A DNA stretch of 24,158 nucleotides from Baffinella frigidus (lineage: Eukaryota > Cryptophyceae > Cryptomonadales > Baffinellaceae). Shown one piece after another: positions 2,738-23,930 of the stretch (its first letter is position 1; every line of letters starts with the position of its first letter). Location: assembly GCA_026770585.1 (NCBI GenBank), contig MU647069.1, positions 94,499 to 118,656 on the forward strand, in the 5' to 3' direction. The notes beneath the pieces are model-generated. The model was not told the origin of the DNA. It saw nothing but the letters and a program-made list of their open reading frames with translations, and did no database searches. The position numbers and the translations under genes were made by a program.

Positions 2738-2834
2738 CGAGGCGATCTCGGCAGAGGAGAAGCTCGAGTACCAGAAGAAGGTCAAGCAGATCGCTAAGGC
2801 TCTCCCGAAGGCGCTTGTTGTCTCGAAAGGCAAG
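2738..2834 (+). CDS. Exon 1 (first recognised), charged helical segment
   Basis: Open frame reading EAISAEEKLEYQKKVKQIAK and then ALPKALVVSKGK, ending at AAG before GT (gttgtg) in phase 0. The acceptor could be the CAG just before 2738 or another AG a few bases away, so the start is approximate. The Lys/Glu-rich stretch looks helical, possibly a linker before the first beta-sandwich. An in-frame partial copy with a single residue change lies at 3093-3140. The exon sits directly after a run of 'agttaacttt'-like sequence related to nearby TIR elements. Confidence 0.5.
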
Positions 2835-5800
2835 GTTGTGCACACCCTCGCTCCAAGTTGACTTTTGATGAAACATCCGTAGGCTTTTGATGAAAGGTCC
2901 GTAGTCCGGTTGTTGACACCCTCAATTCCCCTCATTTGAGAGAGAGGGTTCTTTATTGACGACCAACTGGTACGGATTCACCTCATCATGGCTCAGATGA
3001 TGTGAGTTGGACCGGCCTCGCGCCGTAGGAGTTTGAATTCTCTTTTCTAGGTAGCGTTATATCTACCTTCCTAGTTCCGCATTTGATCTTAGCAGATCGC
3101 CAAGGCGCTCCCGAAGGCGCTTGTCGTCTTGAAAGGCAAGGTTGTGCACACCCTCGCTCCAAGTTGACTTAATGGCATCAGGGCACGTTGACTTTTGATG
3201 AAAGGTCCGTGGTCTACCGTGTGGTACCTACCTCTGTCGCAGTCTGTTTGTTCTCACCAATTTGATGAGCCCGGGCTCTTTGCTGCTCCAACGTTGACGA
3301 ATTTTCACCGTGAACTCAGAATTTCAACACATGAAGGTCAACTAGAGTGAGACAGAGATGAACAGGATAAAAGTCAATTCCTTCGAGGAATTATGCCCAA
3401 AGTTGTGAACATTCTTTTTGTGTGACCCAACCCCGGGCCTGATTCAGGCCGGGAGGAATTCGAAAGGCACGCCAGGGAGGTTCAGTAGAGACCCTAGCCC
3501 TAAACCTCAGTTGATCGTAGCTCCTCATTCAACACATTTAGATGCTGTGTGAAAAGTGCACCGGACTCTCAAAGAACAAGAACGAGCTTCAAGGACCCTG
3601 TACCACTCGAGAATGCTGGAGGATCCTATTTACATGTAGGGTTGTAAATATTTGTACCAGGATAGGGTGTTCCAACCTCTCGCCTGGACTAATTTTGCCG
3701 AGTTACGTGACCAATCAATGAAACTTACTACACAAATGCTCACTTGTAAAAGCACATCGGTTTTAATAGGCCCCTCTAACATTCTCGTGTGGTACTAGGC
3801 CGACACCTAGGGACCAGCGGTGTTCCTTGGGGGGGGGCGCATTTTCGTATGAGCGAGGTACCCCTGTAGTCCAGATGTGCACCACGTGTATTCGCTTGCA
3901 TGACCTCTCGCTCAAATATGGCCCCCTGGCCACTCAAGGGATACATCTTCGTCTCGAGTCAGTAGACCCTGCTCGGACCTAGCCCTCGTGGGGGTGGTCA
4001 AATATCACCTCCTGGCCACTTAAGCAGGATGGCCACTTAAGCAGGACCTACTGACTACAGACCAAGGTGTAACCCTTAAGTGGCCAGGGGGTTATATTTG
4101 ACCGGACCTAGCCTTAGTGCGGGTGCATACATGGCGGCCGTGGAGGTGTCAATAACAGTCTTTCTCTTTCCAGGGTGTAAGGTTTGGGGTTTCAAGTTGA
4201 GGGTGTCGAGTGAGGGGTACGGGTTTCGAGGGTCGAATGTAGGGGTTTTAGGTTCAGGGTGCAAGATTTTGGGATCAGAGTTCAGGGTTCGGAGGGTTTG
4301 GGGTTTAGGGGTTTGGGTTTCGAGCTAAGAGGTGGGGCTCATAACATGTGGGACGCTCTAGGAGTGCGAGTGATGAAGACCGAAAATCCCTAAACCCTAA
4401 ACCATAAACCATCCACTTAGCAGCCAAGGGGGCCTTCACGGATACAGTCCATCTAAACGACTTGTACTAGAATCTTATCCATTGCCCTGGATTCCAACCG
4501 GAATTTCGCCTTGATTTGGCAAAAAGGAACTCGGCCGCTGCTAAGTGGAACCATCAACTCCAAACCCGAAACCCTAAATCAGGAGGTTGTGCGAGTGGTG
4601 AATCGCAAATCCTCGAATCCGATCGTGCCTGACGAACAGACGGAAATCACCCTAAACCCTAAACCCTAAACCCTAAACCCTAAACCCTAAACCCTAAGCC
4701 CTAAACCATAAACCCTAAACCCTGAACCCTACACCCCAAACCCTAAAACCCTAAACCCTAAACCCTAAACCCTAAACCCTAAACCCTAAACCCCAAAACC
4801 TAAACCCTAAACTCTGAACCCTAAACCCTAAACCCTGCACCATAAACCATAAACCATACACCCTAAACCCTAAACCCCAAACCCCAAACCCCAAACCCTA
4901 AACCCTAAACCCTAAACCCTAAACCAGGAAATCACAATCACCGCGGGCACCTTCTTCCCGGAGGTATTCGAAATACATTCCACTGAAATTTCAAAACAAA
5001 TCAAACTACATATCCAAGAAAATATCTCTAAATATTTCAAACAAATTTTACTGCCAGTGTTGCGTTCCCTTAGGTGTGAAGAAACGCAGTGCTCCCCACA
5101 CGCCATAAGTTCACTCCATACATGTCATAAGTGGACGCGAACCGTCCACGCATGTGTGCAAACAGTGCGGGCTAGCTCTATTTCAGAGTGGCTGTCATCG
5201 AGAGGTTTGGACACACTTGGACGGTGCGTTGCACACAGCATTTCGTTACGCGTAACCCAACACATCCCATAACCCCCCTTTTGTGTGTCTGGAAATATAT
5301 ATATCTAAGCCCCTCCCCCCCCCTTTGCGTCGGGAAACCTCGCTAGGTCACTACTGGGAATTTGCCTGAAGTTCATTTCGATATTATTTCCCAGGAAACA
5401 CGCCAAAAGTCAGGAATTGGAGCCACTTCTTGGCGCAATAATTTTCAATGCTACCAGGAAACGCTTCTGGCTCTCTCCAAACGGAGGGGGCCCCAACCTT
5501 ACATTCTGATTTGTGACCTGGCGCGGGCAGGGAGAGAGATTGGTACTTCATTGCCAAACAACCAGCGTCAGCGCTGCACGTGCCTTCCGCATTCTGCTAC
5601 ATACTGTACCCCGTGTCGGCCGCTCTTACGAGCTTTTTCCTGATGGATTCTATCTCCACCTGCTACAGGGACATTGGGTACGGTGTGGCAGCGCGAATGA
5701 CACGTGGGGTGGCAGGAATGATCTACTGTTCTAGTGACATTGAGATCATCCGAAAGGAAGCATGGCCTTTGTCAAAACCAGTTCCAGGGTCCGCGCATGG

Positions 5801-8800
5801 TGGGAGTTAAAAGAACATGACTAGGAAGGTGGATATAAGGCTACCTGGAAAAGGGAATTCGAACTCCCAAGGCGCGAGACTCATATCATCTGAGCTATGA
5901 AGATGTGGATCCGGACCAGTTGGTCGTCAATAAAGAACTCTCTCTCTATATAAAGGACCATTAAAGGACCCACTCGGTGGGCTTCGAAGGTTTCGTTGGC
6001 CCTTGATTCCGGGGTGCTACGTGACCAATTTGCATTGAAATATTCTTAAAGTTAATTGTCTTCAGGTAAGTTGACTTTTGACAGAAGGTTCGTAGTCCTC
6101 CGAGTTGCTAACGGACGTTTCATTGGCAGATGGATGTGTACGTCAAGGCCGAGAACGGAGAGTTCATTGACACCTCCCCTCAGAAGAATCTCGAGGTCCA
6201 GCACCTAAACCCTAAACCCGAACCCTCAACTCTAAACCCTACCCCCAAAAACCTAAACCCCAAACCTTCAACCCTATACCCTAAACCCTAAACCCCACAC
6301 CCTAATCCTAACCTCTAAAGCCTAAAGACGAAACCATACACCCTACACCGCCAGGGAGCAGTTAGAGCCTATGCTCCAATCCCTAATCCTCAAACCATAC
6401 ACCCTAAACCCTAAACCTTAAACCCTCAACCCTAGCACCCAATCCATAAACCCTAACCCTGAACCCTAAACACTAAACCCTAAACCTTAACCAATAAACC
6501 CTCAGCGCTAAACCATAAACCCTGAATGCTGAACCCCAAACCCTCAACCCTAAACCCTAACCCCTGAACCCCTAAACCCTAACCCCTCAACCCTAACCTC
6601 TAAACTATAACCCCTAAACCCCAAGCCCTAAACTAACCCCCAAACCAAAAACAAGGTGCAAGGCAAGATCTTCATGACGCATGTCTGGAACACCAAGACC
6701 GGGCTTTCCGAGAAGATGGTACACCCCACACAGAGGGATACAAAGGGAGTTTTGGGCACTCAGTGCCCGAGTTTCCGTTTCCTTATCCGCAGAAACCCCT
6801 CTATCTATATCCCTACGGCCTACCGTAGGTTGCCAGGTCTTATCGATTAGGAGTGATTCAAAATCACTTCGAAGTCCGCTGTGTGGCCTGAGAGATTGGT
6901 GATTTATTGCCAAACAACCTGCGTGAGCGCCGCACATGCCTTCCGCATTGTGCTACATACTGTACACCGTGTCGGCCGCTCTTACGAGCTTTTCCCTGAT
7001 GGATTCTATCTCCACTTCCCACCACCCCCCTTGGCATATCCGCGCCAGGTCGCAAATTCGAATTTCGCAACGTTTCGTGCTAAAAGTGTTTCAACGTTAA
7101 AAGTGTTTCAACGTTTCGTGCTAAAAGTGTTTCAACGCAACGTTTCGTGCTAAAAGTGTTTCGTGGTATTGAGGAAACATTATTGCGCCCGGAATGGCTT
7201 CACGTCAAACAATGCCAAGATTTGATAGTTTAGTAACAACATCGTCAACGCGTGGTATTGTTTAACCATTTTTGTGATGCGAGAGTTGGTTCTTTTTGGC
7301 GTTTCGCGGTTCCTTTGTCAAAAACTTTTGCCAAGTTTTCTCCCCTGCATTTCAGGTCAATTTTAAGTCAATTTCGAGTCAATTTCGGTTCAATTTTGAG
7401 TTAATTTCGAGATAATTTCGACGATTTGCGTATCTCTCTGCCGCCGACTTATGTCCCTCTGTTCGACTTATGACCCTCTGCTCGCCGACGTATGTCCCTC
7501 TGTTACCTCCCTCCGTTGACTTACGTCCCTCCTGTTTTCCCCCATGCCTAAACCCTGAACCCTGAACCCTGATCCCTGAACCCTGAACCCTAAACCTTAA
7601 ACCCCAAACCCTGAATCCTAAATCCTAAACCCTAAACCCTAAACCCTACACCCTAAACTCTGAACCCTAAACCCTAAACCCTAAACCCTGAACCCTAAAC
7701 CCTGAACATTAAACCGCTGTGCAGCCAGATCCTCTGAGGAAGGAATTGGCGGAAAAAGCTGGAGGAAAAAAGTACGCCCCCCCCTCCCCCCCGATTCCGA
7801 AAACATTTACCAAGCTTGCTATCCACGCTGTACAGTGGGCTACGAAGTGATTTCGTGAATAACCCAGAACTGGATAATCCGTTGGGTCCTACGGTAGGCC
7901 ATCCGTAGGGACATAGTGTTGTTCCTACGGACATCCTAACCGGTACTTGGTCAGCATCGGGAATCCCATTGCAGCCCGCTGTGTGGAGTGGTCCACACGT
8001 TGGACTGCCAAGGTTTCGGGACCCCCAGATCTGGGGTGTAACCTGACCAACTTTGCATCAGAAATCCCTTAAAGTGAATTGTAGGGGGGCAAGTTGACTT
8101 TTGATGAAAGGTCCGTAGGCCACCGTGTGGTACCTAGCTCTGTCTTTGTCTATTTGGGTTGACCAATTCGGCAAACCCGGGCTCATTTCCGCTCCAAAAG
8201 TGATGCATCTACACCGAAAACCCAGCATGTCAACTTTGCACAAGAAACCCAGCATGTCAACTTTGCACAAGACTGTGCACAAGGTTAGGGCACATTGGAA
8301 TTTGACCATCACATAGTATAGATTGATGGTCAAATATGAGGAGACGATTCTGCTGAGAGAGAGTTGACTGACCCGGTTGGCGATGTTTCGGGTACGCGGG
8401 TTAGAGTTTCGGGTTTCAGGTTTTGGGCTGCTTTTAGGGTTTCGTGTTTCGGGTTTAGGGCTGGTTTCGCGGGTTAGGGTTTCGGGTTTCGGGTTTAGAC
8501 CTTTTGTGGACTGCCTCACACCGTTGCGTGTAAAGTTTATTGGAGTAAAGCAACTAGGTATTGTGTGTAAAGATGTTAGAGTGAAGTAACTAGGGACAGC
8601 CCGAATCTTTTGTGAGCGGATGGTTGTGGGTTGCCCTCCATCAGTTGCGATTCTGGTTTAGGGATTGAGGTTCAGGGTTTAGGGTTTAGACTATGTTCTG
8701 CCACACCCAGGACCGGTGTGATAGAATGAATATCCAAATTAATCAATGGACGGTACAGTTCCTAACCCTAAACACTAATCCCAAAAACCTATACCCCCAA

Positions 8801-8880
8801 CCCCCAAACCCTAACCCCTAAACCCTAAACTCTCAACCCTAATCTCTAAATCCTCAACTCTCAAACCTCAACCCTTAACC

Positions 8881-8912
<32 letters not shown>

Positions 8913-11479: not shown

Positions 11480-11510
<31 letters not shown>

Positions 11511-11654
11511 TGGTTGAGGGTTGAGGGTTGAGGGTTGAGGGTCGAGGGTCGAGGGTTGAGGGTTGAGGGTTGAGGGTCGAGGGTTGAGGGTCGAGGGTTG
11601 AGGGTTGAGGGTTGATGGTTGAGGGTTGAGGGTCGAGGGTTNNNNNNNNNNGGT

Positions 11655-11686
<32 letters not shown>

Positions 11687-11732
11687 GGTCGAGGGTTGAG
11701 GGTTGAGGGTTGAGGGTCGAGGGTTGAGGGTC

Positions 11733-11770
<38 letters not shown>

Positions 11771-20700: not shown

Positions 20701-20846
20701 GCTCAGCGTCGCTCTCTGGAGCAGCGGAGAAGCTTCCGGTCGCTGGGGGGGATGCGGGCGAGGCGGCATTCCTGCTCGTCGCGGACGCTGGGAGCACCGT
20801 CTCTGGGGTGCGTCTTCTCTCTCTCTCTCTCTCTTTCTCTCTCCCT

Positions 20847-20885
<39 letters not shown>

Positions 20886-22263
20886 TCTTCTTCACCTCTC
20901 GCACATATTCTCCAAACCATTACCATTCGTGCATAGGCCTTACACCCCACACCTCAAACCTCAAACCCGAAACCCCACCGTCTCTGGGGTGCGTCTTCTT
21001 CCTTTTCCTTTCCTTTCGTGCACAGGCTTTAAACCCTAAACCTTCTTCTCATTATTTATTACTTTATTATTATTTATTACTCTCGATACAGGTCCTAAAT
21101 CAGGCCCTTTAGTCTTGAGTTAAGTGATACAATACTCTATGAGCCTTAAGAACGGGTTCGCCTCAGAAACGTGCGCGATAACCCTAAACCATTCGTGCAT
21201 AGGCCATAAACCCCAGACTTCAAACCTCGAACCTCAAACCCCGAACCCTAAAGCAGGTGTCGTTCCGGTTCTGCGACGAGGCGGACGAGCGCGTGGACAT
21301 CGCGCCGGGTAGCGGGTGGACCGCGCGTGGCGGCGGATGGAAGAAGGTCCTCCCCAATGATTCTTCTACCACTTTTCTTCTACCACGGAGCCTACCACAG
21401 CAGGCTCCGGTGACTTCGGGAATCGGTCCGAAGTTGATTCTCACCCGGGAAACACGCCAAAAGGCAGCAAATCTCTCGGTAATCCGGGGGGGGAGGGCAA
21501 CGGTGGCTGATGAGTGGTTAGGGCGAGCGCGTGCACATCACGGTGGGCAGCGGGTGGACCGCGCGTGGCGGCGGATGGAACAAGATCCTACACCGTAGAC
21601 CCTGAACCCTAGACCGTAAACTAGACCCTAAGCTGTAGTCCCTAACCCCTAGACCCTAACCTAAGCCTCTCTCATATCGGATCCCAAGTTGAATCTCGCA
21701 TATCTGGTCCCTAGTGAACATCGCGGCGGGCAGCGGGTGGACCGCGCGTGGTGGCGGATGGAAGAAAGTGCCCCCCCCCCCGCCGATGTGTCGTCAAATG
21801 ATAATTTATTGATTGCAAGACCAGCATGACCACATTCTAAGACCCCTGCGGGGTTTTTTGGTACCACAAGGGTCTGGAGTTCTCTCATTAGGGAATGCAT
21901 TCCCGATTTATACGGGCTAGTAAAACCGCCACCCCTTTAAACCGTGACCTTCCCACCTCTTTGAAACGTGAAACCAATCGGCAGAGCAAGGAGGTGAGTG
22001 GGGACGTGTCGATGCCGGGCTGCAAGATGCGCGAGCGCGCGGGCGACAAGGAAGAGCTCACCATCATCTTTGAGGGCCCGTCCGGGACCGAGCACAGGAA
22101 GCTCGACTGCGTGCTCGTGCTCTCCCCGGCCGCCGCGCCGCCGAAACGCTGGCAGCTCGCGTGTCCCCCTCGCAAAGACAAGACGGGGAAGATGATCGAC
22201 GCGAAGCCGTTTTCTGATCAGTATAAGTGCAAGGTGGGGAGCGGGCGGCCGCTCCGGTAAACC

Positions 22264-22302
<39 letters not shown>

Positions 22303-22347
22303 ACTCTCAACCCTCAACCCTCAATCCTCAACCCTCAACCCTCAATC

Positions 22348-22442
<95 letters not shown>

Positions 22443-23930
22443 ACTCTCAACCCTCAACCCTCAATCCTCAACCCTCAACCCTCAACCCTCAACCATAAAT
22501 CCTCAACCCTCAACCATCAACCCTCAACCCTAGACCCTCAACCCTCAACCATAAACCCTCAACCCTCAACCCTCCACCCTCAACCCTCAACCCTCAACCC
22601 TCAACCATAAACCCTAAACCCTCAACCATAAACCGTAAACCCTCAACCCTAAACCCTAAACCCCAAACCCTAGGACGCTGATGTGCGCGCAGCTGGTGGA
22701 CGAGTTCGACAACGTGTGCCCGCTCGGCAGCATCCCCCCCGACCTGGTCCCAGAGTGCAGCACCCTGGGCAACAACCCTGGGATCGCGCTGGAGAAGGGG
22801 GACGGGAAGTGGGACCGCGAAGGGGACTACTTCCTCCCGCCTCGTGCCGCGGTGCTGACCAAAACGCTGCTGGCGGGGACGGGGTCAGACGCGTTCGAAA
22901 TCCTCGTCAAAAACGGCCGCCCGTCTGAAGCGGCGGATGGCCCCATGCGCGCGGGGGCAGGGGGGGGGGCAGGGGGGGCGCAGAGGCACATCAAAGGCTT
23001 CAAGCAGCAGGTGCTGCTGGAGGCGGGGGACCCTGCAGGGCTCAGGGTGAGCTATAAGCCGGAGGTCAAGGAGGAGGGGGTGTGGACTGCGGATGCCGAC
23101 AAGGTGAGAGAGAGAGGGGGTGAACAGTAAATACTGAACCCTTAACCCTAAACCTCAAACCCTGAAACCTCAACCGCAAAACAGAGGGTTCTGAAGGACG
23201 GAGAGGAGCTCATCGAGCCGTTTCCGACGTAAACCCTAAACCCTCAACCTTAAACCCTAAACCCTAAATCCTACACCCTAAACCCTAAGCCCTAAACCGC
23301 ACACCCTAAACCCTAAACCCTAAAGCATATACCATAAAACAGAAACCCTAAACCCTCAATCCTCAATCCTAAACCTTAAACCCTAAACCTCATACCCTAA
23401 ACCCCAAACCCCATACCTTAAACCCTAAACCCTACACCCTGAACCCCAAAACATAAACCCGAAATCCTGAACCCTAAACCCTACATCCTACACCCTGAAC
23501 CCTAAAACATCAACCCCAAATCCCAAACCCTAAACCCTAGACCCTAACCCCCAAACCAGGCGGTACCTACTGCAGGAGCTTGAGGTGCAGGTGGTGGACA
23601 AGTGGGGAAACGTCGTTTCAGGCTCGTCCTCCTAAACCCTACACCCCAAACCCTAAACCCTGCACCCAGAACCCTGAACAATAACCCTAAACCCTCAACC
23701 CTAAACCCTAACAATAACCCCAAACCCAAAACCGTCGTTTCAGGCTCGTCCTCCATTTCCCTAAACCCCAAACCCTAAACCCCAAACCCTAAACCCTAAA
23801 CCCTAAACCCTCAACCCCAAACTCCAAACCCCAAAGCGTCGTCGCAGGCAAAGCGTTAAAGACAGACACGGTGTCGTTTTCGCTCAAAGAGTGTCTCCTG
23901 TCCGACTCTTCTGCCAAGACTCCGGTGGCG
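2738..23930 (+). CDS. Multi-exon gene, tandem Ig-like (SMCHD1/GMI1-like?) protein, partial
   Basis: Twenty-five exons can be joined into one frame of about 863 codons, with every junction phase compatible (mixed phases 0, 1 and 2). That is unlikely by chance for exons this short. The translation has repeated beta-sandwich signatures: AGTFFPE followed by MDVYVKAENGEF (exons 2-3), AGTYEVTYTL (exon 6), SAGLPASVEIV (exon 7), LVDEFDNV (exon 22) and VQVVDKWGNVVSG (exon 24). D-x-x-G/D-N-V turns after a hydrophobic strand are typical of the Ig-like repeats in the SMCHD1/GMI1 family of SMC-hinge chromatin proteins, which act in gene silencing and DNA repair. No GHKL ATPase or SMC hinge is seen, so only the middle of such a protein would be here. 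Other Ig-like or filamin-like proteins remain possible. Gene structure is more secure than family. Coding sequence is about 12% of the span. Exons are GC-rich and introns are repeat-filled. Start and stop codons are not identified. Confidence 0.6.
2940..3077 (+). mobile_element. tRNA-derived SINE-like repeat, copy 1
   Basis: Matches the reverse complement of 5821-5947 over its length. It has a pol III A-box-like tggctcagatgatg (2989-3002) and a B-box-like gagtttgaattct (3029-3041) about 40 bases apart, as in tRNA-derived SINEs. No intact cloverleaf can be folded. Confidence 0.6.
3093..3140 (+). pseudogene. Echo copy of exon 1 (3' half)
   Basis: Sixteen codons, QIAKALPKALVVLKGK, match the end of exon 1 with one residue change (S to L) and several synonymous changes. 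The copy is preceded by TTAG, a possible acceptor, and followed by the same gttgtgcacaccctcgctcc intron start as exon 1. It could be a decayed duplicate or a second usable exon. Confidence 0.6.
3190..3600. other. Repeat fragments and low-repeat sequence, no gene
   Basis: Begins with the gttgacttttgatgaaaggt end shared by the 9532-type element and continues into a stretch related to 8115-8205. The remainder shows no exon-like segment. Confidence 0.5.
3601..3794. mobile_element. MITE-like element, TIR taccactcgagaatg
   Basis: 15-bp TIRs with one mismatch (cattctcgtgtggta at the other end), 194 bp. Shares internal motifs and TIR core with the element at 1091-1301. Confidence 0.65.
3846..3866. 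mobile_element. Solo end of the 13707-type element
   Basis: cgtatgagcgaggtacccct followed by g and TA matches one terminus of the element at 13707-13824. The other end is not found nearby. Confidence 0.5.
3912..4101. mobile_element. MITE-like element, about 29-bp TIRs
   Basis: Ends tcaaatatggccccctggcc... and ...ggccagggggttatatttga, 190 bp. It contains a second, internal copy of the end (from 3986) and a tandem atggccacttaagcagg pair near 4012-4043, so it looks nested or rearranged. Confidence 0.7.
4165..4330 (-). repeat. Heptamer-like block in reverse orientation
   Basis: Degenerate gggttt/aggggttt units, G-rich on the + strand, opposite to most of the window. Confidence 0.7.
4413..4548 (+). 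mobile_element. MITE-like element with 6-bp target duplication
   Basis: TIRs ccacttagcagcc and ggccgctgctaagtgg. It is flanked on both sides by aaccat (4407-4412 and 4549-4554), consistent with a target-site duplication in a heptamer array. Same family as 1791 and 2269. Confidence 0.75.
4650..4924. repeat. CCCTAAA array up to the exon 2 acceptor
   Basis: Nearly continuous CCCTAAA with a few CCCCAAA and CATAAAC variants, ending three bases before the CAG acceptor. Confidence 0.9.
4928..4963 (+). CDS. Exon 2, microexon EITITAGTFFPE
   Basis: A 36-nt, 12-codon exon between CCAG and GTATTC, phase 0 at both ends. It reads EITITAGTFFPE and runs into MDVYVKAENGEF of exon 3. Together they give the beta-strand, AG-x-FPE, beta-strand pattern of an Ig-like repeat. 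It follows directly on a CCCTAAA array, which fills the end of the upstream intron. A faint partial copy (acggaaatcacc) lies near 4640. Confidence 0.5.
4964..5532. other. AT-richer intron sequence, no gene recognised
   Basis: Low heptamer content. Holds the motif ggaaacacgccaaaagtcag (5395 on), also found at 21450 and inverted near 15913, a short dispersed repeat. No exon-like segment with both splice sites. Confidence 0.4.
5533..5659 (+). repeat. Dispersed repeat, copy 1 (pair with 6890-7015)
   Basis: From gagagattggt to ggattctatctccac, about 127 bp, closely matching 6890-7015. Confidence 0.8.
5821..5947 (-). mobile_element. tRNA-derived SINE-like repeat, copy 2 (inverted)
   Basis: On the minus strand it reads tagctcagatgata (A box, 5884-5897) and gagttcgaattcc (B box, 5854-5866). 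It looks like a tRNA, but the T-stem lacks a pairing base, so it is not an intact tRNA gene. Matches 2940-3077. Confidence 0.65.
5970..6103 (+). mobile_element. TIR element, 9532 family, diverged
   Basis: Starts ccactcggtgg, then gcttcgaaggtttcgt, gtgaccaatttgcat, aaagttaattg and ttgacttttga, in the same order as 9532-9661. It ends 26 bases before exon 3. Confidence 0.65.
6130..6195 (+). CDS. Exon 3, Ig-like strand MDVYVKAENGEFI
   Basis: A 22-codon exon after TTGGCAG, reading MDVYVKAENGEFIDTSPQ then KNLE, followed by GTCCAG. Phase 0 on both sides. The ATG at its first codon could be read as a start, but an acceptor lies directly in front and exon 2 joins in frame, so I treat it as internal. 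The donor is weak beyond GT, so the 3' end could be a few bases off. Confidence 0.5.
6205..6650. repeat. Degenerate heptamer filler of intron 3
   Basis: Mixed CCCTAAA, CCCTCAA and CCATAAA units filling most of the intron, with a short non-repeat stretch at 6350-6380. Confidence 0.85.
6656..6718 (+). CDS. Exon 4, VQGKIFMTHVWNTKTGLSEKM
   Basis: A 21-codon exon after ACAAG, ending at ATG before GTACAC, phase 0 on both sides. It begins VQGKIFMTHVWN. The previous exon ends LE, and its intron begins gtccag, which would encode VQ, so exon start and intron start resemble each other. No stop codon inside. Confidence 0.5.
6764..6886. repeat. Dispersed element with cctacgg/ccgtagg core
   Basis: From gcccgagtttccgtt to gaagtccgctgtgtgg, matching 16176-16298. 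The core is a palindrome of cctacgg and ccgtagg. Related pieces at 7870-7990 (inverted) and 13237-13330. Confidence 0.7.
6890..7015 (+). repeat. Dispersed repeat, copy 2
   Basis: Matches 5533-5659. It follows directly on the previous element. Confidence 0.8.
7066..7166. repeat. Tandem repeat, cgtttcgtgctaaaagtgtt unit
   Basis: Three full units and one short unit of acgtttcgtgctaaaagtg plus tttca. Confidence 0.85.
7350..7535. repeat. Two adjacent tandem repeats
   Basis: 7355-7430 holds about six units like gtcaatttcga. 7440-7535 holds four units like cgacttatgtccctctg. No open coding frame runs through them. The stretch 7167-7350 shows nothing recognisable. Confidence 0.75.
7545..7715. repeat. 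CCCTGAA/CCCTAAA block
   Basis: Mixed heptamers starting with CCCTGAA and passing into CCCTAAA. Confidence 0.9.
7993..8130 (+). mobile_element. TIR element, 9532 family
   Basis: ccacacgttgg at the start, ccaccgtgtgg at the end, with the internal motifs of the family (ctgaccaactttgcatc, aaagtgaattg, ttgacttttgatgaaagg). Confidence 0.7.
8380..8500 (-). repeat. Reverse-orientation heptamers (gggtttcg type)
   Basis: Degenerate gggtttcgggtttag units, G-rich on +. A short similar piece is at 8650-8690. Confidence 0.8.
9006..9043 (+). pseudogene. Echo copy of exon 5, 5' part with acceptor
   Basis: Repeats the acceptor region (cagttggacgcag) and the first eight codons of exon 5 (TKALNKAF) with one synonymous change, then breaks off into heptamer repeats. 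Truncated before any donor. Confidence 0.6.
9130..9162 (+). pseudogene. Second echo of exon 5, 5' part
   Basis: Repeats cagttggac-cagacgaaggcg and about six codons of exon 5, then diverges. This is the same 5' fragment as at 9006, so one piece has been duplicated more than once. Confidence 0.55.
9253..9312 (+). CDS. Exon 5, TKALNKAFTFDKLDKGVFLQ
   Basis: A 20-codon exon between GACGCAG and GTTCCT, phase 0 on both sides, running into AGTYEVTYTL of exon 6. Its neighbourhood is crowded with copies: two truncated 5' copies upstream (9006-9043 and 9130-9162), each including the cagttgga-c-cag acceptor region, and a 3' copy downstream (9478-9513). I chose this copy because only it is complete and open. 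Confidence 0.55.
9478..9513 (+). pseudogene. Echo copy of exon 5, 3' part
   Basis: Twelve in-frame codons, MFDKLDEGVFVQ, match the exon 5 end (TFDKLDKGVFLQ), but the boundary reads CAG followed by GCACGT instead of GTTCCT. A GC donor is possible. It abuts a dispersed TIR element at 9532. Confidence 0.55.
9532..9661 (+). mobile_element. TIR element, type copy, 130 bp
   Basis: Terminal ccacacggtg and caccgtgtgg are exact reverse complements. Non-coding interior. Related copies at 5970, 7993 and, inverted, 19295. A small non-autonomous DNA transposon is the simplest reading. Confidence 0.75.
9826..9927 (+). CDS. Exon 6, Ig-like strand pair AGTYEVTYTL
   Basis: A 34-codon exon after ATCAG, ending ACG before GTGCGT, phase 0. 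It starts AGTYEVTYTLVGVNPKDANG and ends KLKLT. 'GTY-V-Y-L' followed by a charged loop and a closing strand is a typical last hairpin of an Ig-like repeat. The donor is one of the better ones in the gene. The end and donor region is repeated at 10102-10169 and 10307-10328. Confidence 0.65.
10102..10169 (+). pseudogene. Echo copy of exon 6, frame kept, strong donor
   Basis: In-frame copy reading YPTDANGNEKTTKITSKLKL then TEP, against exon 6 NPKDANGNEKTNKISTKLKL. Changes are conservative (N/T, S/T, T/S). It is followed by GTGAGT, a closer match to the donor consensus than that of exon 6. No clear acceptor is visible directly upstream. A decayed duplicate or an alternative 3' exon. Confidence 0.6.
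10180..10470. repeat. GA-rich tract and ttgtacag repeats
   Basis: 10180-10262 is purine-rich (gagaga/gaagaa). 10307-10328 copies the exon 6 end with donor. 10320-10470 holds about ten irregular ttgtacag units and a (gtta)5 run at 10412-10430. Confidence 0.75.
10640..10810. repeat. CCCCAAA/CCACAAA block
   Basis: Heptamers with local homogenisation to accacaa and ccccaaa, ending just before the exon 7 acceptor. Confidence 0.9.
10826..10912 (+). CDS. Exon 7, VSAGLPASVEIVRPAPDDPR
   Basis: A 29-codon exon after CACAG, ending GFR-like FRKLQ before GTCCTC, phase 0. 'SAGLPASVEIV' opens a new beta-sandwich repeat (a Pro turn after a conserved Ala-Gly, then a hydrophobic strand). Exon 8 starts with gtcctg, nearly identical to the start of this intron (gtcctc). 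An in-frame copy of the last 16 codons is at 11033-11080. Confidence 0.6.
11033..11080 (+). pseudogene. Echo copy of exon 7, 3' part with donor
   Basis: Sixteen codons, PAPDDPRKEKPFRKLQ, match exon 7 PAPDDPRKDEPFRKLQ. Of five base differences three are synonymous and two give D/E and E/K. The copy ends in the same CAG-GTCCT boundary. Upstream it abuts aacccaaaa heptamers with no clear acceptor. Confidence 0.65.
11133..11217. repeat. Homogeneous CCCAAAA heptamer run
   Basis: About 12 nearly perfect copies of a single variant, preceded by a short CCCGAAA run. Confidence 0.95.
11456..11797 (-). repeat. Inverted TTGAGGG array with N gap
   Basis: About 45 tandem copies of ttgaggg/tcgaggg, G-rich on the + strand. 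Flanking arrays are C-rich on +. Positions 11642-11651 are N, so the true length is unknown. Confidence 0.95.
11860..12235. repeat. Degenerate CCCTAAA filler around exon 8
   Basis: Heptamer variants on both sides of the microexon at 11947. Confidence 0.85.
11947..11984 (+). CDS. Exon 8, microexon VLGTNKKKALHL
   Basis: A 38-nt exon after AAACAG, reading VLGTNKKKALHL plus two bases of an Arg codon, before GTTCTA (phase 2). Exon 9 supplies the third base. The intron start gttct is repeated as the first bases of exon 9 (gttcttc), so the exact cut point is ambiguous, but the protein would barely change. Confidence 0.5.
12237..12321 (+). CDS. Exon 9, FFDGVGLGEMLDGKKKKEKW
   Basis: An 85-nt exon after ACCCAG. 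One base completes the Arg codon from exon 8, then 28 codons begin FFDGVGLGEMLDG, continue through a Lys run and end GNLCFLQ before GTCTCA (phase 0). Surrounded by heptamer repeats on both sides, so its coding character stands out sharply. Confidence 0.6.
12325..13070. repeat. Heptamer filler of intron 9
   Basis: CCCCAAA and CCCCGAA units at 12330-12660, then CCCTAAA variants to the exon 10 acceptor. A short non-repeat stretch at 12715-12755. Confidence 0.85.
13076..13141 (+). CDS. Exon 10, ENAMTMPRVEIEQIHDSAKP
   Basis: A 22-codon exon after CACAG, ending SQ before GTCGCC, phase 0. It continues in frame from FLQ of exon 9 into VKFTFNV of exon 11. A shortened copy of its second half follows at 13391-13440. 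Confidence 0.55.
13237..13330. repeat. Palindromic cctacgg/ccgtagg region
   Basis: Several interleaved inverted copies of ccgtagg and cctacgg and a gggcctaggggcccc core. Related to the element at 6764. Confidence 0.6.
13391..13440 (+). pseudogene. Echo copy of exon 10, with deletions
   Basis: Repeats ccgcg-gtcgagatc and the end gaagccttcc-ggtcgcc of exon 10, with internal deletions that break the frame. Clearly decayed, unlike several other echoes. Confidence 0.5.
13707..13824. mobile_element. MITE-like element, TA target duplication
   Basis: caggggtacctcgctcataa and its near-exact reverse complement at the other end, 118 bp, flanked by TA on both sides. TIR plus TA is typical of Tc1/mariner-type non-autonomous elements. 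It ends 49 bases before exon 11. Confidence 0.8.
13874..13923 (+). CDS. Exon 11, VKFTFNVNSAEKTGKP
   Basis: A 50-nt exon after TTTTTGCAG (the clearest pyrimidine tract in the window), giving VKFTFNVNSAEKTGKP plus two bases of Gly, before GTACGC (phase 2). Exon 12 begins with G and TAC, completing Gly-Tyr. The intron start ggtac is repeated at the exon 12 start. The end is echoed at 14074-14091. Confidence 0.6.
13933..14465 (-). repeat. Reverse-orientation heptamer blocks
   Basis: gggttag/gggttta units at 13936-14037 and 14100-14190, ttgaggg at 14295-14325 and 14423-14462. G-rich on +. Breaks at 14040-14100 (exon 11 echo), 14195-14250 and 14350-14420. Confidence 0.9.
14074..14091 (+). pseudogene. 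Echo of exon 11 end with GTAAGG donor
   Basis: gacggccgggaaacccgg copies the last codons of exon 11 (T-G-K-P-G) and is followed by GTAAGG, a near-consensus donor, better than that of the exon itself. Embedded in inverted (TTTAGGG-sense) heptamers. Confidence 0.4.
14560..15085. other. Low-repeat stretch, no gene recognised
   Basis: The longest heptamer-free stretch of this intron. A minus-strand frame of 89 codons (14662-14931) exists but has no family motif, so I do not call it. Confidence 0.4.
15090..15350. repeat. CCCCAAA/CCCTAAA block before exon 12
   Basis: Dense heptamers running to the GGTAG acceptor. Confidence 0.9.
15358..15436 (+). CDS. Exon 12, YLSCDVKCHLENGQKLLDLA
   Basis: A 79-nt exon after GGTAG. 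One base finishes Gly from exon 11, then 26 codons end SKKSVK before GTCTCC (phase 0). The frame stays open past the proposed donor (VSLHA...), so the end could lie further on. Two in-frame echoes at 15583-15633 and 15944-15997 both stop at the same AAG-GT position, which supports the chosen boundary. Confidence 0.55.
15583..15633 (+). pseudogene. Echo 1 of exon 12, frame kept
   Basis: Seventeen codons LEDGQTLQDLASKKSDK match exon 12 LENGQKLLDLASKKSVK with no stop. It is followed by GTCCTC at the equivalent boundary. No confident acceptor upstream. Confidence 0.6.
15648..15750 (+). repeat. Dispersed repeat (pair with 21077-21178)
   Basis: ttattactctcgatacaggt, gaggcc-, cttgagtt-agtgatacaa and gccttaagaa-cgggc-cgcc appear in the same order in both copies. 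A fragment also occurs at 9330-9375. Confidence 0.75.
15858..15904. repeat. Perfect 23-bp inverted repeat, 1-nt loop
   Basis: Arms 15858-15880 and 15882-15904 are exact reverse complements (core gtttccgcccgct / agcgggcggaaac). Confidence 0.95.
15944..15997 (+). pseudogene. Echo 2 of exon 12, frame kept
   Basis: Eighteen codons YLEDGQTLQDLTSNKSVK match exon 12 and echo 1, ending AAG before GTCTAC. It shares T-L-Q-D with echo 1 against K-L-L-D in exon 12, so the two echoes are closer to each other than to the exon. It lies 40 bases after the 47-bp hairpin at 15858. Confidence 0.6.
16068..16175 (+). pseudogene. Echo copy of exon 13 start, cut by a repeat element
   Basis: Thirty-six open codons: LEGLQFFSNADVEISIVSGP, then GSKRKAVAPG and PSKPES. 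From VEISIVSGPGSKRKA onward it matches exon 13, with seven synonymous differences against four replacements. It stops at 16175, exactly where the dispersed element 16176-16298 begins. The first 11 codons differ from those of exon 13, so it may be an alternative 5' version rather than simple debris. Confidence 0.6.
16176..16298. repeat. Dispersed element, second copy of 6764-6886
   Basis: From gcccgagtttccgtta to gaagtccgctgcgtgg. It lies exactly between the exon 13 echo and the region before exon 13. Confidence 0.75.
16330..16655 (+). CDS. Exon 13, long exon with VEISIVSGPGSKRK
   Basis: A 326-nt exon after GTGGCAG, reading IETEVEISIVSGPGSKRKAA and later TVTVEVCAGKPCRLVAEVQA, a Gly/Lys-rich acidic loop, then LKLENHRKGPGVAVTAYD and two bases of Lys before GTAACC (phase 2). 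The strand-turn-strand pattern 'TVTVEVCAGKPCRLVAEV' fits an Ig-like fold. The frame is also open upstream of 16330 (KKKSWQ), so the start may be slightly earlier. The internal loop with Gly runs is probably disordered. Confidence 0.65.
16660..16840. repeat. CCCTAAA block of intron 13
   Basis: Dense heptamers directly after the exon 13 donor. 16900-17040 is heptamer-free and without a recognised feature. Confidence 0.9.
16847..16890 (+). pseudogene. Decoy copy of exon 14 with in-frame TAG
   Basis: After TTCAG it repeats the first 40 or so bases of exon 14, with only two base changes in the first 30. The Gln codon CAG is TAG here (16875-16877), giving WGHPVQSII then stop. If exon 13 spliced here the protein would be truncated. 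Sequence identity falls off after about 16890. Confidence 0.6.
17080..17160 (+). CDS. Exon 14, WGHPVRSIIQGEREDALEIV
   Basis: An 81-nt exon after CTCAG. One base completes Lys, then WGHPVRSIIQGEREDALEIV and ELLKHA, plus two bases of Gly before GTGCGT (phase 2). The second half looks alpha-helical. The donor is good. A near-identical but stop-containing copy lies 230 bases upstream at 16847. Confidence 0.65.
17180..17211 (+). pseudogene. Echo of exon 15 core (1)
   Basis: gcggggcgaaagaagcgccc followed by ggagtcgttcc repeats the central Lys/Arg-rich part of exon 15. It lies just downstream of the exon 14 donor and has no own splice sites. Confidence 0.5.
17383..17441 (+). pseudogene. Echo of exon 15 (2), one extra G
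   Basis: Copies exon 15 including the upstream intron end (aatacaac-cag). The G run after the acceptor is one base longer (7 rather than 6), so it would be out of frame if spliced from exon 14. The rest reads DPRGAKRKKRPESFRP in the matching frame. The extra G could also be a homopolymer error. Confidence 0.55.
17471..17534 (+). CDS. Exon 15, basic segment GGTDPRGRKKRKESFRPVTV
   Basis: A 64-nt exon after AACGCAG. One base completes Gly, then 21 codons end VTVK before GTAACG (phase 0). The RGRKKRK cluster could be a nuclear localisation signal or nucleic-acid-binding patch (inference). Two imperfect copies precede it, at 17180 and 17383. Confidence 0.6.
17580..18065. repeat. Heptamer and CCTGAAC filler of intron 15
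   Basis: Includes three gcaacgcccctgaccccaaa-like tandem units at 17533-17600 and a CCCCAAA run at 17917-17975. Confidence 0.85.
18077..18152 (+). pseudogene. Echo of exon 16, interrupted by a palindrome
   Basis: Begins gtgaacg like exon 16 and ends FNGLAVHLD, matching FEGRAVHLE of exon 16. A 29-bp palindrome (18092-18120) sits between the two matching parts and shifts the frame. Shorter copies of only the first bases (caggtgaa-ac-g-caccag) occur near 17285 and 17890. Confidence 0.45.
18092..18120. repeat. Perfect 14-bp inverted repeat, 1-nt loop
   Basis: gtcacgaaaaccgt, c, acggttttcgtgac, inside the exon 16 echo. Confidence 0.95.
18155..18238. repeat. Dispersed repeat, inverted partner of 1946-2026
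   Basis: gttcgagccctctctggacg... to agtctcttctct matches the reverse complement of 1946-2026. Confidence 0.6.
18483..18602. repeat. Two hairpins plus repeated flank
   Basis: aaaaagccagg / cctggcttttt (18483-18517) and gcagagtgggtagggct / agccctaccctacccactct (18557-18599). The ctctaaaagccctacc... sequence after the second also occurs at 18304-18360, a local duplication. Confidence 0.7.
18660..18722 (+). CDS. Exon 16, VNGETAASVFEGRAVHLEEP
   Basis: A 21-codon exon after ACCAAG, ending PP before GTGCTA, phase 0. It joins VTVK of exon 15 to VKSPEKH of exon 17. The acceptor is AAG and the donor is weak, so the boundaries are moderately certain. Confidence 0.5.
18725..19080. repeat. CCCTAAA and CCCTAGA heptamers before exon 17
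   Basis: A homogeneous CCCTAGA run at 18890-18950, with a shorter copy of the same run after exon 17 at 19190-19232. Confidence 0.9.
19103..19154 (+). CDS. Exon 17, VKSPEKHVLHYKIKTAD
   Basis: A 52-nt exon after CGCCAG, giving 17 codons plus one base before GTCAGT (phase 1). Exon 18 supplies GT to complete Gly (TADG-HEG). The intron start gtca equals the exon 18 start gtca. It is flanked on both sides by copies of the same ccctaga block (about 18890-18955 and 19190-19235). Confidence 0.6.
19295..19431 (-). mobile_element. TIR element, 9532 family, inverted
   Basis: Reverse complement of the 9532 type: cacactgtgg, gaacctttcatcaaaagtca, ggaatccaggccc and ccaccgtgtgg in order. Confidence 0.75.
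19764..19825 (+). CDS. Exon 18, HEGIETSMPLTITPSKAPFS
   Basis: A 62-nt exon after ACCCAG. Two bases complete Gly, then HEGIETSMPLTITPSKAPFS before GTGCCT (phase 0). 'PLTITPSKAPFS' reads like an end strand and inter-repeat linker. No echo copy was found nearby. Confidence 0.6.
19828..20200. repeat. Heptamer filler after exon 18
   Basis: CCCTAAA and CCATGAA variants and a short CCCGAAA/CCCAAAA stretch at 20050-20105. Confidence 0.85.
20266..20456. repeat. Homogeneous CCCATAA heptamer array
   Basis: About 26 tandem copies with few changes (cctataa, ccatagc). The variant is almost confined to this spot, apart from ttatgggttatggg at 19612. Confidence 0.95.
20545..20610 (+). pseudogene. Echo of exon 19 with its own acceptor, no donor
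   Basis: After AAGCAG it reads VCPYLARDASLSGAEEKLPV then AR, against exon 19 VCPYLARDGSASLSGAAEKLPVAGG. The frame is open and the acceptor kept. The copy ends without a GT donor. Confidence 0.6.
20676..20807 (+). CDS. Exon 19, VCPYLARDGSASLSGAAEKL
   Basis: A 44-codon exon after CACCAG, ending AFLLVADAGSTVSG before GTGCGT, phase 0. 'AAFLLVADAGS' is a hydrophobic beta-strand plus turn. Downstream the intron opens with a CT microsatellite. A 24-base copy of the exon end plus donor is at 20976-20999, and an in-frame copy of the first half lies just upstream. Confidence 0.6.
20815..20892. repeat. CT microsatellite after exon 19 donor
   Basis: tctctc interrupted by ccctccctccc, 7 bases downstream of the GTGCGT donor. 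Confidence 0.95.
20976..20999 (+). pseudogene. Echo of exon 19 end and donor
   Basis: caccgtctctggggtgcgtc followed by ttct repeats the last bases, donor and intron start of exon 19 without upstream exon sequence. Confidence 0.6.
21077..21178 (+). repeat. Dispersed repeat, partner of 15648-15750
   Basis: Same order of motifs as 15648-15750. Contains gggttcgcc, faintly B-box-like, too weak to call a SINE. Confidence 0.7.
21257..21346 (+). CDS. Exon 20, VSFRFCDEADERVDIAPGSG
   Basis: A 30-codon exon after AAAGCAG, continuing WTARGGGWKK before GTCCTC, phase 0. The donor is weak, but both downstream echoes end at the same AAG/AAA position, which supports it. An alternative GT (gtagcg) exists inside the exon. 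Confidence 0.6.
21525..21584 (+). pseudogene. Echo 1 of exon 20, frame kept
   Basis: Twenty codons ERVHITVGSGWTARGGGWNK match exon 20 ERVDIAPGSGWTARGGGWKK with no stop. It is followed by ATCCTA, so the donor GT is lost. Confidence 0.65.
21714..21767 (+). pseudogene. Echo 2 of exon 20, frame and donor kept
   Basis: Eighteen codons VNIAAGSGWTARGGGWKK match exon 20, followed by GTGCCC. It is preceded by CCTAG. Of the two echoes this one is closest to being a usable exon. Confidence 0.65.
21768..21984. other. Heptamer-free intron end before exon 21
   Basis: Starts with a C run, contains the palindrome gggaatgcattccc (21892-21905) and no heptamers. Nothing else recognised. Confidence 0.4.
21985..22256 (+). 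CDS. Exon 21, beta-rich segment with LTIIFEGPSG
   Basis: A 272-nt exon after CGGCAG, reading SKEVSGDVSMPGCKMRERAG, then DKEELTIIFEGPSGTEHRKL, DCVLVLSPAAAPPKRWQLAC, and ending VGSGRPL plus two bases of Arg before GTAAAC (phase 2). Alternating hydrophobic strands (LTIIFEG, LDCVLVLS) fit one Ig-like unit. GC-rich with strong G/C third positions. It can also be read from an ATG at 21895, but that upstream part is unrelated to the exon. Confidence 0.7.
22258..22650. repeat. CCCTCAA heptamer array
   Basis: About 50 copies, starting in the exon 21 donor (gtaaaccctcaac) and ending shortly before the exon 22 acceptor. It is the entire intron. Confidence 0.95.
22674..23103 (+). CDS. Exon 22, largest exon, Ig-like LVDEFDNV
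   Basis: A 430-nt exon after CCTAG. One base finishes Arg, then TLMCAQLVDEFDNVCPLGSI, a long charged loop, LTKTLLAGTGSDAFEILVKN, a Gly/Ala-rich run (likely disordered), IKGFKQQVLLEAGDPAGLRV and the end VWTADADK before GTGAGA (phase 0). 'AQLVDEFDNV' is the strand-D-x-x-x-N turn expected at the start of an SMCHD1-type Ig repeat. Clear coding bias, canonical donor. Preceded by 400 bases of CCCTCAA repeats. Confidence 0.75.
23105..23555. repeat. Heptamer fillers of introns 22 and 23
   Basis: CCCTAAA variants on both sides of microexon 23. Confidence 0.85.
23185..23228 (+). CDS. Exon 23, microexon RVLKDGEELIEPFP
   Basis: A 44-nt exon after AAACAG, 14 codons plus two bases of Thr before GTAAAC (phase 2). 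It is completed by the first base of exon 24. 'VLKDGEELIEPF' reads as a beta-hairpin. Confidence 0.55.
23560..23621 (+). CDS. Exon 24, VQVVDKWGNVVSG, with GC donor
   Basis: A 62-nt exon after ACCAG. One base completes Thr, then RYLLQELEVQVVDKWGNVVS plus one base. The only donor giving an open junction with exon 25 is GC (gctcgt). The GT alternative at 23612 would put TAA in frame. 'VQVVDKWGNVV' is the clearest Ig-repeat motif in the window. The end is echoed at 23733-23754. Confidence 0.55.
23733..23754 (+). pseudogene. Echo of exon 24 end
   Basis: cgtcgtttcaggctcgtcct followed by cc repeats the last codons of exon 24 and the start of its intron. A third version (gtcgtcgcag) forms the acceptor of exon 25. 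Confidence 0.6.
23848..23930 (+). CDS. Exon 25, KALKTDTVSFSLKECLLSDS
   Basis: An 83-nt exon after GTCGCAG. Two bases complete Gly, then 27 codons ending SAKTPVA before GTACCT (phase 0). 'GNVVSG-KALKTDTVSFSL' continues the Ig strand pattern of exon 24. The gene probably goes on beyond the window. Confidence 0.55.

Follow-up and report, generated by a model that had tools for sequence, protein, structure and literature searches.

Partial copies of exons lying in the neighbouring introns of the same gene may be alternative exons kept by selection or the remains of a process that duplicates DNA locally, and the locus described here raises this question for about half of its exons at once. The window, which is the whole stretch of DNA analysed (~24 kb, GC 51.4%), was found to carry one spliced gene on the + strand. 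An earlier note on this DNA had reported at least 12 exons with partial, mostly in-frame copies nearby, here termed echoes, and had offered both readings. The origin of such copies is addressed below through their alignment, position, intervening DNA and divergence.

Gene model and repeat content

The exon chain was assembled solely from compatibility of reading frame and splice sites, and comprises 25 exons including a candidate exon, e0. Exon numbering is that of the earlier note as far as coordinates permit; its exon 4 was not recovered in the rebuilt chain, the limits of exons 1, 13, 15, 21 and 22 are uncertain, and the acceptor of exon 13 (16342) was picked with the intron-end pattern described below in view. 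Given e0, the gene may extend upstream of the exon previously taken as its first.

651-711, candidate exon e0, upstream of exon 1; two or three short copies of its acceptor and exon start lie near 490, 370 and 290, with telomere-like arrays between

The Pfam search of the gene returned one match, below the cut-off, and PDB sequences compared with a 504-residue part gave a best E of 0.16. The protein collection searched for a homologue (7987 and 7986 candidates scored) yielded no match, six peptide patterns of exon 22 scanned over viral and prokaryote contigs found no relative, and the Rfam and tRNA scans of the window were empty. A resemblance of the gene product to SMCHD1-type beta-sandwich modules is an impression only and is not claimed.

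The introns consist in good part of telomere-like arrays (CCCTAAA and variants; TTTAGGG-type); inverted-repeat elements, dispersed repeats and microsatellites occur among them. On account of these repeats, the GC content and the richness in introns, a prasinophyte (Cymbomonas) and dinoflagellates were weighed as the source of the DNA, and PMC10675990, PMC5741210 and PMC11453091 do not decide the matter. In 22 introns (6196 to 23847) the C-rich units account for 35% of bases and the G-rich units for 6%, while units of either kind make up 3% of exon bases. Within the last 100 nt of these introns C-rich exceeded G-rich units in 18 of 22; the reverse held in two (7% and 17% of bases) and neither kind was present in the other two. 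The intron between exons 24 and 25 (23621/23848) is the single one of the model with an apparent GC donor; the next exon starts with GC, and the end of the intron carries a third, short copy of the end of exon 24 (13/16 bases). The other repeats of the window are the following.

2939-3075 (+) and 5820-5947 (-), two copies in opposite orientation of a dispersed, SINE-like element that looks tRNA-derived by eye; no tRNA was called by ARAGORN
5970-6105, 7992-8131, 9531-9662 and 19295-19432 (-), possible MITE, a dispersed element whose short ends are inverted by eye; fragments of it also lie close to 2854-2907 and 3172-3225
5534-5659 and 6890-7015, dispersed repeat family, from self-comparison
6765-6886, 16176-16298 and 7833-7931 (-), dispersed repeat family, from self-comparison
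15645-15757 and 21070-21181, dispersed repeat family, from self-comparison
1161-1202, 3909-4104, 9949-10108, 13193-13365, 13705-13826 and 15855-15907, hairpin-like inverted repeats with arms ~69-94% complementary; some adjoin echoes directly

Exon copies and their controls

Each of the 25 exons was aligned to all introns, with non-adjacent forward, reverse-complement and reversed-letter alignments as controls. A same-strand match in an adjacent intron scoring above all of the exon's own controls was obtained for 13 of 25 exons (12 of 24 without e0). Best adjacent-intron scores were 121 to 289 for exons 1, 5, 6, 7, 10, 12, 13, 14, 15, 19 and 20; exon 16 (score 99) and e0 (80) exceeded their own controls by a smaller margin. 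The highest controls over the 25 exons were 118 (non-adjacent forward) and 143 (reverse-complement), both from exon 22, which has no echo, and 120 (reversed-letter, exon 6). Ten passing exons stand far above controls; exons 10, 16 and e0 do not clearly exceed the top control of the whole set. Two further exons, 11 and 24, failed their own controls (68 vs 71 and 61 vs 85); their copies of 19 and 25 nt were kept in the list because they are built alike and lie near the exon. Masked self-BLASTN (E<1e-3) gave 61 pairs, a total that pools echoes with dispersed elements and inverted repeats; the reversed sequence gave 20, all of which were microsatellite-like by eye. The echoes are confirmed as real.

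For none of the exons with an echo was an equally good match found elsewhere in the window (25 exons against all introns), and a retrocopy or element-borne dispersal of exons was rejected on that ground. As the copies are adjacent, on the same strand and of varied identity, the proposal that local duplication is a constant process here is borne out. Twelve of the exons for which copies had been reported pass the controls; exons 11 and 24 do not, and e0 is added. Alignment recovered the echoes of exons 6, 7, 12 (two), 19 and 20 (two) at the coordinates first given; that of exon 13, placed before at 16068, was re-found at 16096-16174 and now counts 8 synonymous to 4 replacement changes instead of 7 to 4. 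New relative to the earlier note are the presence of exon 5 echoes on either side of that exon, a second echo of exon 19 (20976-20999) and a second of exon 6 (10305-10331). The copies are listed below, with the source in the exon and its flank.

370-389, +, e0 upstream echo b; source 650-669
490-510, +, e0 upstream echo a; source 650-670
3091-3170, +, exon 1 echo, 3' part of exon and 15 nt of intron; source 2785-2864
9006-9043, +, exon 5 upstream echo a, intron end, acceptor and first 25 nt; source 9240-9277
9131-9164, +, exon 5 upstream echo b; source 9241-9274
9455-9514, +, exon 5 downstream whole-exon copy, the only one among the listed blocks, acceptor AG retained, GC in place of the donor GT, 3 nt deleted; source 9251-9313
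10103-10177, +, exon 6 echo 1, 3' part of exon and 12 nt of intron, adjoining an inverted-repeat element (arms 9949-9996 and 10061-10108); source 9866-9939
10305-10331, +, exon 6 echo 2, last 10 nt and 17 nt of intron, 26/27 identical; source 9918-9944
10946-10964, +, exon 7 short echo, exon end and donor; source 10900-10918
11033-11096, +, exon 7 echo, 3' part of exon and 16 nt of intron, the insert between being largely telomere-like; source 10865-10928
13390-13440, +, exon 10 echo, 3' part of exon, frameshifted, inverted-repeat element 13193-13365 in the insert; source 13093-13147
14077-14095, +, exon 11 short echo, exon end, below its own controls; source 13908-13926
15584-15642, +, exon 12 echo 1, 3' part of exon and 9 nt of intron; source 15387-15445
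15780-15796, +, exon 12 mini-echo, exon end and donor, past the dispersed repeat 15645-15757 (also at 21070-21181)
15945-16007, +, exon 12 echo 2, 3' part of exon and 10 nt of intron, past the hairpin 15855-15907; source 15384-15446
16096-16174, +, exon 13 upstream echo, 5' part of exon, the dispersed repeat 16176-16298 (also at 6765-6886) starting 2 nt later; source 16337-16415
16820-16896, +, exon 14 upstream echo, 26 nt of intron end, acceptor and first 50 nt, with a stop inside; source 17054-17129
17178-17211, further partial copy of exon 15, acceptor not crossed, sharing 26 identical bases with the other exon 15 echo
17364-17440, +, exon 15 upstream echo, intron end, acceptor and first 51 nt, frameshifted; source 17452-17521
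18120-18160, +, exon 16 weak upstream echo, acceptor not reached; source 18682-18720
20519-20614, +, exon 19 upstream echo, intron end, acceptor and first 76 nt, 6-nt in-frame deletion; source 20650-20751
20976-20999, +, exon 19 downstream echo, exon end and donor, zero mismatches; source 20795-20818
21521-21593, +, exon 20 echo 1, 3' part of exon and 9 nt of intron; source 21283-21355
21714-21776, +, exon 20 echo 2, 3' part of exon and 9 nt of intron; source 21293-21355
23730-23754, +, exon 24 echo, exon end and GC donor, between two telomere-like arrays, below its own controls; source 23608-23632

Minute tandem copies were also seen at the end of exon 7.

Position relative to splice sites

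When the best match per adjacent intron was taken for the 13 passing exons, 14 matches scored 80 or more. The near exon edge was reached in 13 of these, 12 times without taking in the whole exon; exon 5 gave the one whole-exon match (9457-9513). The exception is exon 16, whose match starts 22 nt into the exon. The start of that exon has a weaker match of its own at 18063-18089 (score 63), with a palindrome (18092-18120) between it and 18120-18160, and the two may be one copy interrupted by the palindrome, although this is a guess. When gap costs are relaxed, the exon 10 and exon 12 echoes extend to 6 and 4 nt from the far edge, which makes 'partial' less clear-cut for these two.

A second set of 23 blocks of 17-102 nt was hand-picked by eye from self-BLASTN and alignments; it excludes the exon 16 copies, the third copy of e0, one mini copy of exon 7 ('e7 mini a') and, for exon 15, the copy at 17178-17211. 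The near splice site is crossed in all 23 blocks and the far exon end is missed in 22: downstream blocks consist of exon end and donor, upstream blocks of acceptor and exon start, and the intron part is just 1-26 nt long. Under random placement of blocks of equal length the chance of this geometry is 0.10 to 0.48 per exon side (16 sides). The product over the 15 sides that have it, the downstream side of exon 5 being the one that fails, is ~2.5e-8, to be read as an order of magnitude only because the list was hand-picked and exon 16 left out. Echoes of one exon often have common edges (exons 12, 20, 5 and e0), which suggests either that echoes were themselves copied again or that breaks recur at hot spots.

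Inserts between exon and copy

The spacers from exon to echo are mostly unrelated inserts that measure 11-498 nt and are of mixed kinds by eye. Telomere-like spacers occur at exons 7, 11, 24 and e0, and partly at exons 5, 15 and 19; inverted-repeat elements at exons 6, 10 and 12; dispersed repeats at exons 1, 5, 12, 13 and 20; microsatellites at the downstream echo of exon 19 and the second echo of exon 6. In six cases (exons 1, 6, 10, 13 and two at exon 12) the end of a dispersed or inverted-repeat element lies at most ~40 nt from the edge of the block.

An intact tandem duplication would require the spacer to resemble the outward flank of the block. In 17 of 22 testable cases the two were no more alike than random stretches of the window; in the remaining five, where about one was expected, similarity exceeded 95% of the null (exon 1, the exon 12 mini-echo, e0 echo b, exon 20 echo 1 and the downstream echo of exon 19). 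This test is nearly blind for mostly telomere-like spacers, because telomere-like letters were masked. The flanks of the telomere-like arrays were also compared: of 85 arrays found 84 were tested, and 8 had flanks more alike than 99% of mismatched pairings, with 0.8 expected (permutation p 0.0026; reversed control 0). The result is not independent of the echoes, because seven of the eight arrays are the e0, exon 5, exon 7 and exon 24 sites listed above. Two of the arrays are given here.

9193-9238, +, telomere-like array flanked by exon 5 duplicates; own-flank score 142
23631-23733, +, telomere-like array with the exon 24 end duplicated on its two sides; own-flank score 95, where the 99th percentile for other pairings is 71

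Direct repeats at intron ends

Intron starts were found to repeat the start of the next exon, with a run-sum of 79 vs 65.8 in permutations over 22 introns (p 0.001) and of 74 vs 60.4 (p 0.0003) over the 19 introns left when 12-13, 20-21 and 21-22, whose sites are uncertain, were dropped. The permutation test is of the kind used for introners (PMC9860276). The third base agreed in 11 of 19 introns (5.6 expected), and among the 12 introns with GT at both places in 9 (3.7 expected, p 0.0008). Bases +3 to +8 showed a slight excess (41 vs 32.8, p 0.044), and the exon-end side of the intron junctions had no excess match (p 0.34). At the level of sequence, the repeats at the intron ends are the pattern of a short target duplication.

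Divergence and selection

Seventeen echoes, among them one with a stop and two frameshifted, were compared with their exons over 798 sites, which gave 42.7 synonymous and 48.3 replacement differences and a dN/dS of 0.37 (bootstrap 0.22-0.69). Exon and echo differ by 10.6% in the exon parts, 13.6% in the intron parts (33/243) and 20% at synonymous sites. The dN/dS called for by the earlier note is compatible with constraint on the exon alone: a neutral echo beside a constrained exon would give 0.53-0.65, inside the bootstrap interval. Since the exon's own constraint lowers the pairwise value, a low value is no sign of selection on the echo, and it was rejected as evidence of selection for this confounding.

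If all changes are placed on a neutral echo, the synonymous share observed is too high. The 48 replacements seen compare with 44-65 expected for a neutral echo beside an exon at omega 0.1 (with intron parts or synonymous sites as yardstick, or both pooled) and with 16-24 if both evolve at omega 0.2. The pooled replacements reject joint constraint at omega 0.2 and fit an unconstrained echo opposite a constrained exon. On the synonymous-only yardstick replacements fall below the neutral expectation (P 0.018), and for an exon omega of 0.2-0.3 the synonymous excess exceeds the neutral-echo expectation (P 0.04-0.016). Echo-specific changes, polarised where two echoes exist (exons 12, 20 and 5), numbered 6 synonymous and 7 replacement, too few to decide alone.

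Most echoes are in frame, as had been reported, while the exon 14 echo has a stop and those of exons 10 and 15 are frameshifted; this says little. One stop-bearing echo was seen, with 1.5-2.7 expected under neutral models and 0.75 under a constrained one, so that open frames are undiagnostic. The upstream echo of exon 19, with 9 synonymous to 2 replacement changes, gave P 0.001 on its own synonymous rate, as one among 17 tested, and 0.19 on the pooled rate. Exons 6, 13 and 20 each have one echo in which, by eye, the splice site within the block has disappeared.

Origin of the copies

The reading preferred here, with a probability of roughly 0.7, is that the echoes have no function and are scars left by repeated insertions that duplicated their targets, likely by repair of staggered breaks with filler DNA. 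Telomere-like repeats, a hairpin or dispersed element or a microsatellite would have been inserted repeatedly beside or across a splice site, each insertion duplicating its target over tens of bases to give the order block, insert, block. Where the block lay across an exon edge, one copy would leave the exon whole, while the other would sit in the intron, be spliced out and decay as an echo. The likely route is a staggered break whose overhangs are filled in, giving two copies, with filler DNA joined between them; a telomere-like filler may come from telomerase or from captured telomeric fragments. Insertion within an exon would disrupt that exon unless the insert were spliced, and insertion wholly within an intron would fade unseen. 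Target duplication across a splice site, together with an intron that absorbs insert and echo, by itself predicts the geometry observed. It is also suggested that C-rich units would supply pyrimidine-rich, CTAA-bearing 3' splice regions, and that the G-rich strand would bring stray AGs. We infer the break repair and the order of these events, as well as a similar birth of the introns themselves. Some observations sit less easily with this account. In exon 16 the best echo ends 22 nt before the near edge, one copy of exon 15 (17178-17211) misses the acceptor, echoes of one exon often share edges, five of 22 spacers resemble the outward flank, the synonymous yardstick alone gives fewer replacements than expected, and the intron-end signal is weak at +3 to +8 and absent on the exon-end side. 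As many inserts are non-telomeric, one mechanism may not cover all.

A plain tandem duplication of part of an exon into the intron, by slippage, template switching or unequal exchange, followed by overwriting of the intervening intron by insertions, would yield identical locality and geometry, and the five spacers like the outward flank and the minute tandem copies at the end of exon 7 speak for it. Against it, 17 of 22 testable spacers are unlike that flank, and the intron part of the blocks is confined to 1-26 nt although the introns average 705 nt (19 measured); such an origin is judged unlikely. That homologous copies of the locus or overlapping contig ends were joined unmerged in the assembly is most improbable. 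A 10-N gap at 11642-11651 does mark joined pieces, and repeats of this type are hard to assemble, but the gap lies inside a telomere-like array and not between an exon and a listed echo; moreover, exon and echo have diverged by 10.6% over the exon parts and by 13.6% over the intron parts, each pair has its own insert, and the assembly would have had to make more than 12 such joins, almost every one at a splice site.

The gene-wide set of alternative or mutually exclusive exons under selection, raised in the earlier note, is very unlikely. Most echoes are open, exon 5 has a complete copy bounded by AG and GC, and in the exon 19 echo the 9 to 2 ratio goes together with an in-frame deletion. Against this, 22 of 23 blocks lack the far exon end, exon 5 alone providing a copy of the whole exon; open frames are undiagnostic, joint omega 0.2 is rejected on pooled replacements, echo-specific changes stand at 6 to 7, and exons 6, 13 and 20 each have an echo that by eye no longer has its internal splice site. 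Taken singly, two copies remain candidate alternative exons: the whole exon 5 at 9455-9514 and the echo of exon 19 at 20545-20614, the sequence of the latter being suggestive.

Comparison with known systems

Interstitial telomeric sequences of rodents and primates are inserted at double-strand breaks, with flank duplication at 6/130 rodent and 4/25 primate loci (PMC2246262). The present locus likewise has telomere-type arrays at internal sites and target duplication in a minority of them (8/84, 0.8 expected). It differs in the many inserts within one gene, in duplications of 17-102 nt across splice sites and in additional non-telomeric fillers. In human and mouse cells, CST-guided Pol alpha-primase acting at break ends with 3' overhangs leads to small tandem duplications (PMC8355091). 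Short direct duplications, here at putative staggered break ends, are common to both; in the present gene an insert parts the copies, and the mechanism is a proposed one.

Introners are intron-creating transposable elements with direct repeats at the intron ends, the donor coming from duplicated target in some families (PMC9860276). The introns here likewise carry the target as a direct repeat at either end (p 0.001 for 22 introns, 0.0003 for 19; weaker over bases +3 to +8, p 0.044). Unlike introners as described there, the introns of this one gene have no common end-to-end sequence by self-comparison, and their bodies are largely telomere-like arrays and mixed elements. In tandem exon duplication with mutually exclusive exons the copies are used as exons (PMC9013439); exon copies in adjacent introns are shared with that system, whereas 22 of 23 listed copies are partial here. 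Among the titles and abstract beginnings of the literature matches listed, gene-wide partial exon copies flanking telomere-like inserts were undescribed, which is no proof of absence.

The pattern, known from the sequence of a single window, is real, unusual and well-structured, and it carries a warning that a low dN/dS between exon and echo does not prove use of an exon copy. The origin of new introns and intron DNA is an open question. A further proposal, rather doubtful at present, is that telomere-type repeats added at staggered breaks are a main builder of introns in this genome: every insertion would duplicate its target, a short duplication bearing AG/GT would give a new intron, with the C-rich array as its 3' splice region, a longer one across a splice site would give an echo, and one gene would keep the record of dozens of repair events. 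As the likely footprints of the process occur about two dozen times in one gene, its mechanism, breakpoints and decay would be measurable within one genome.
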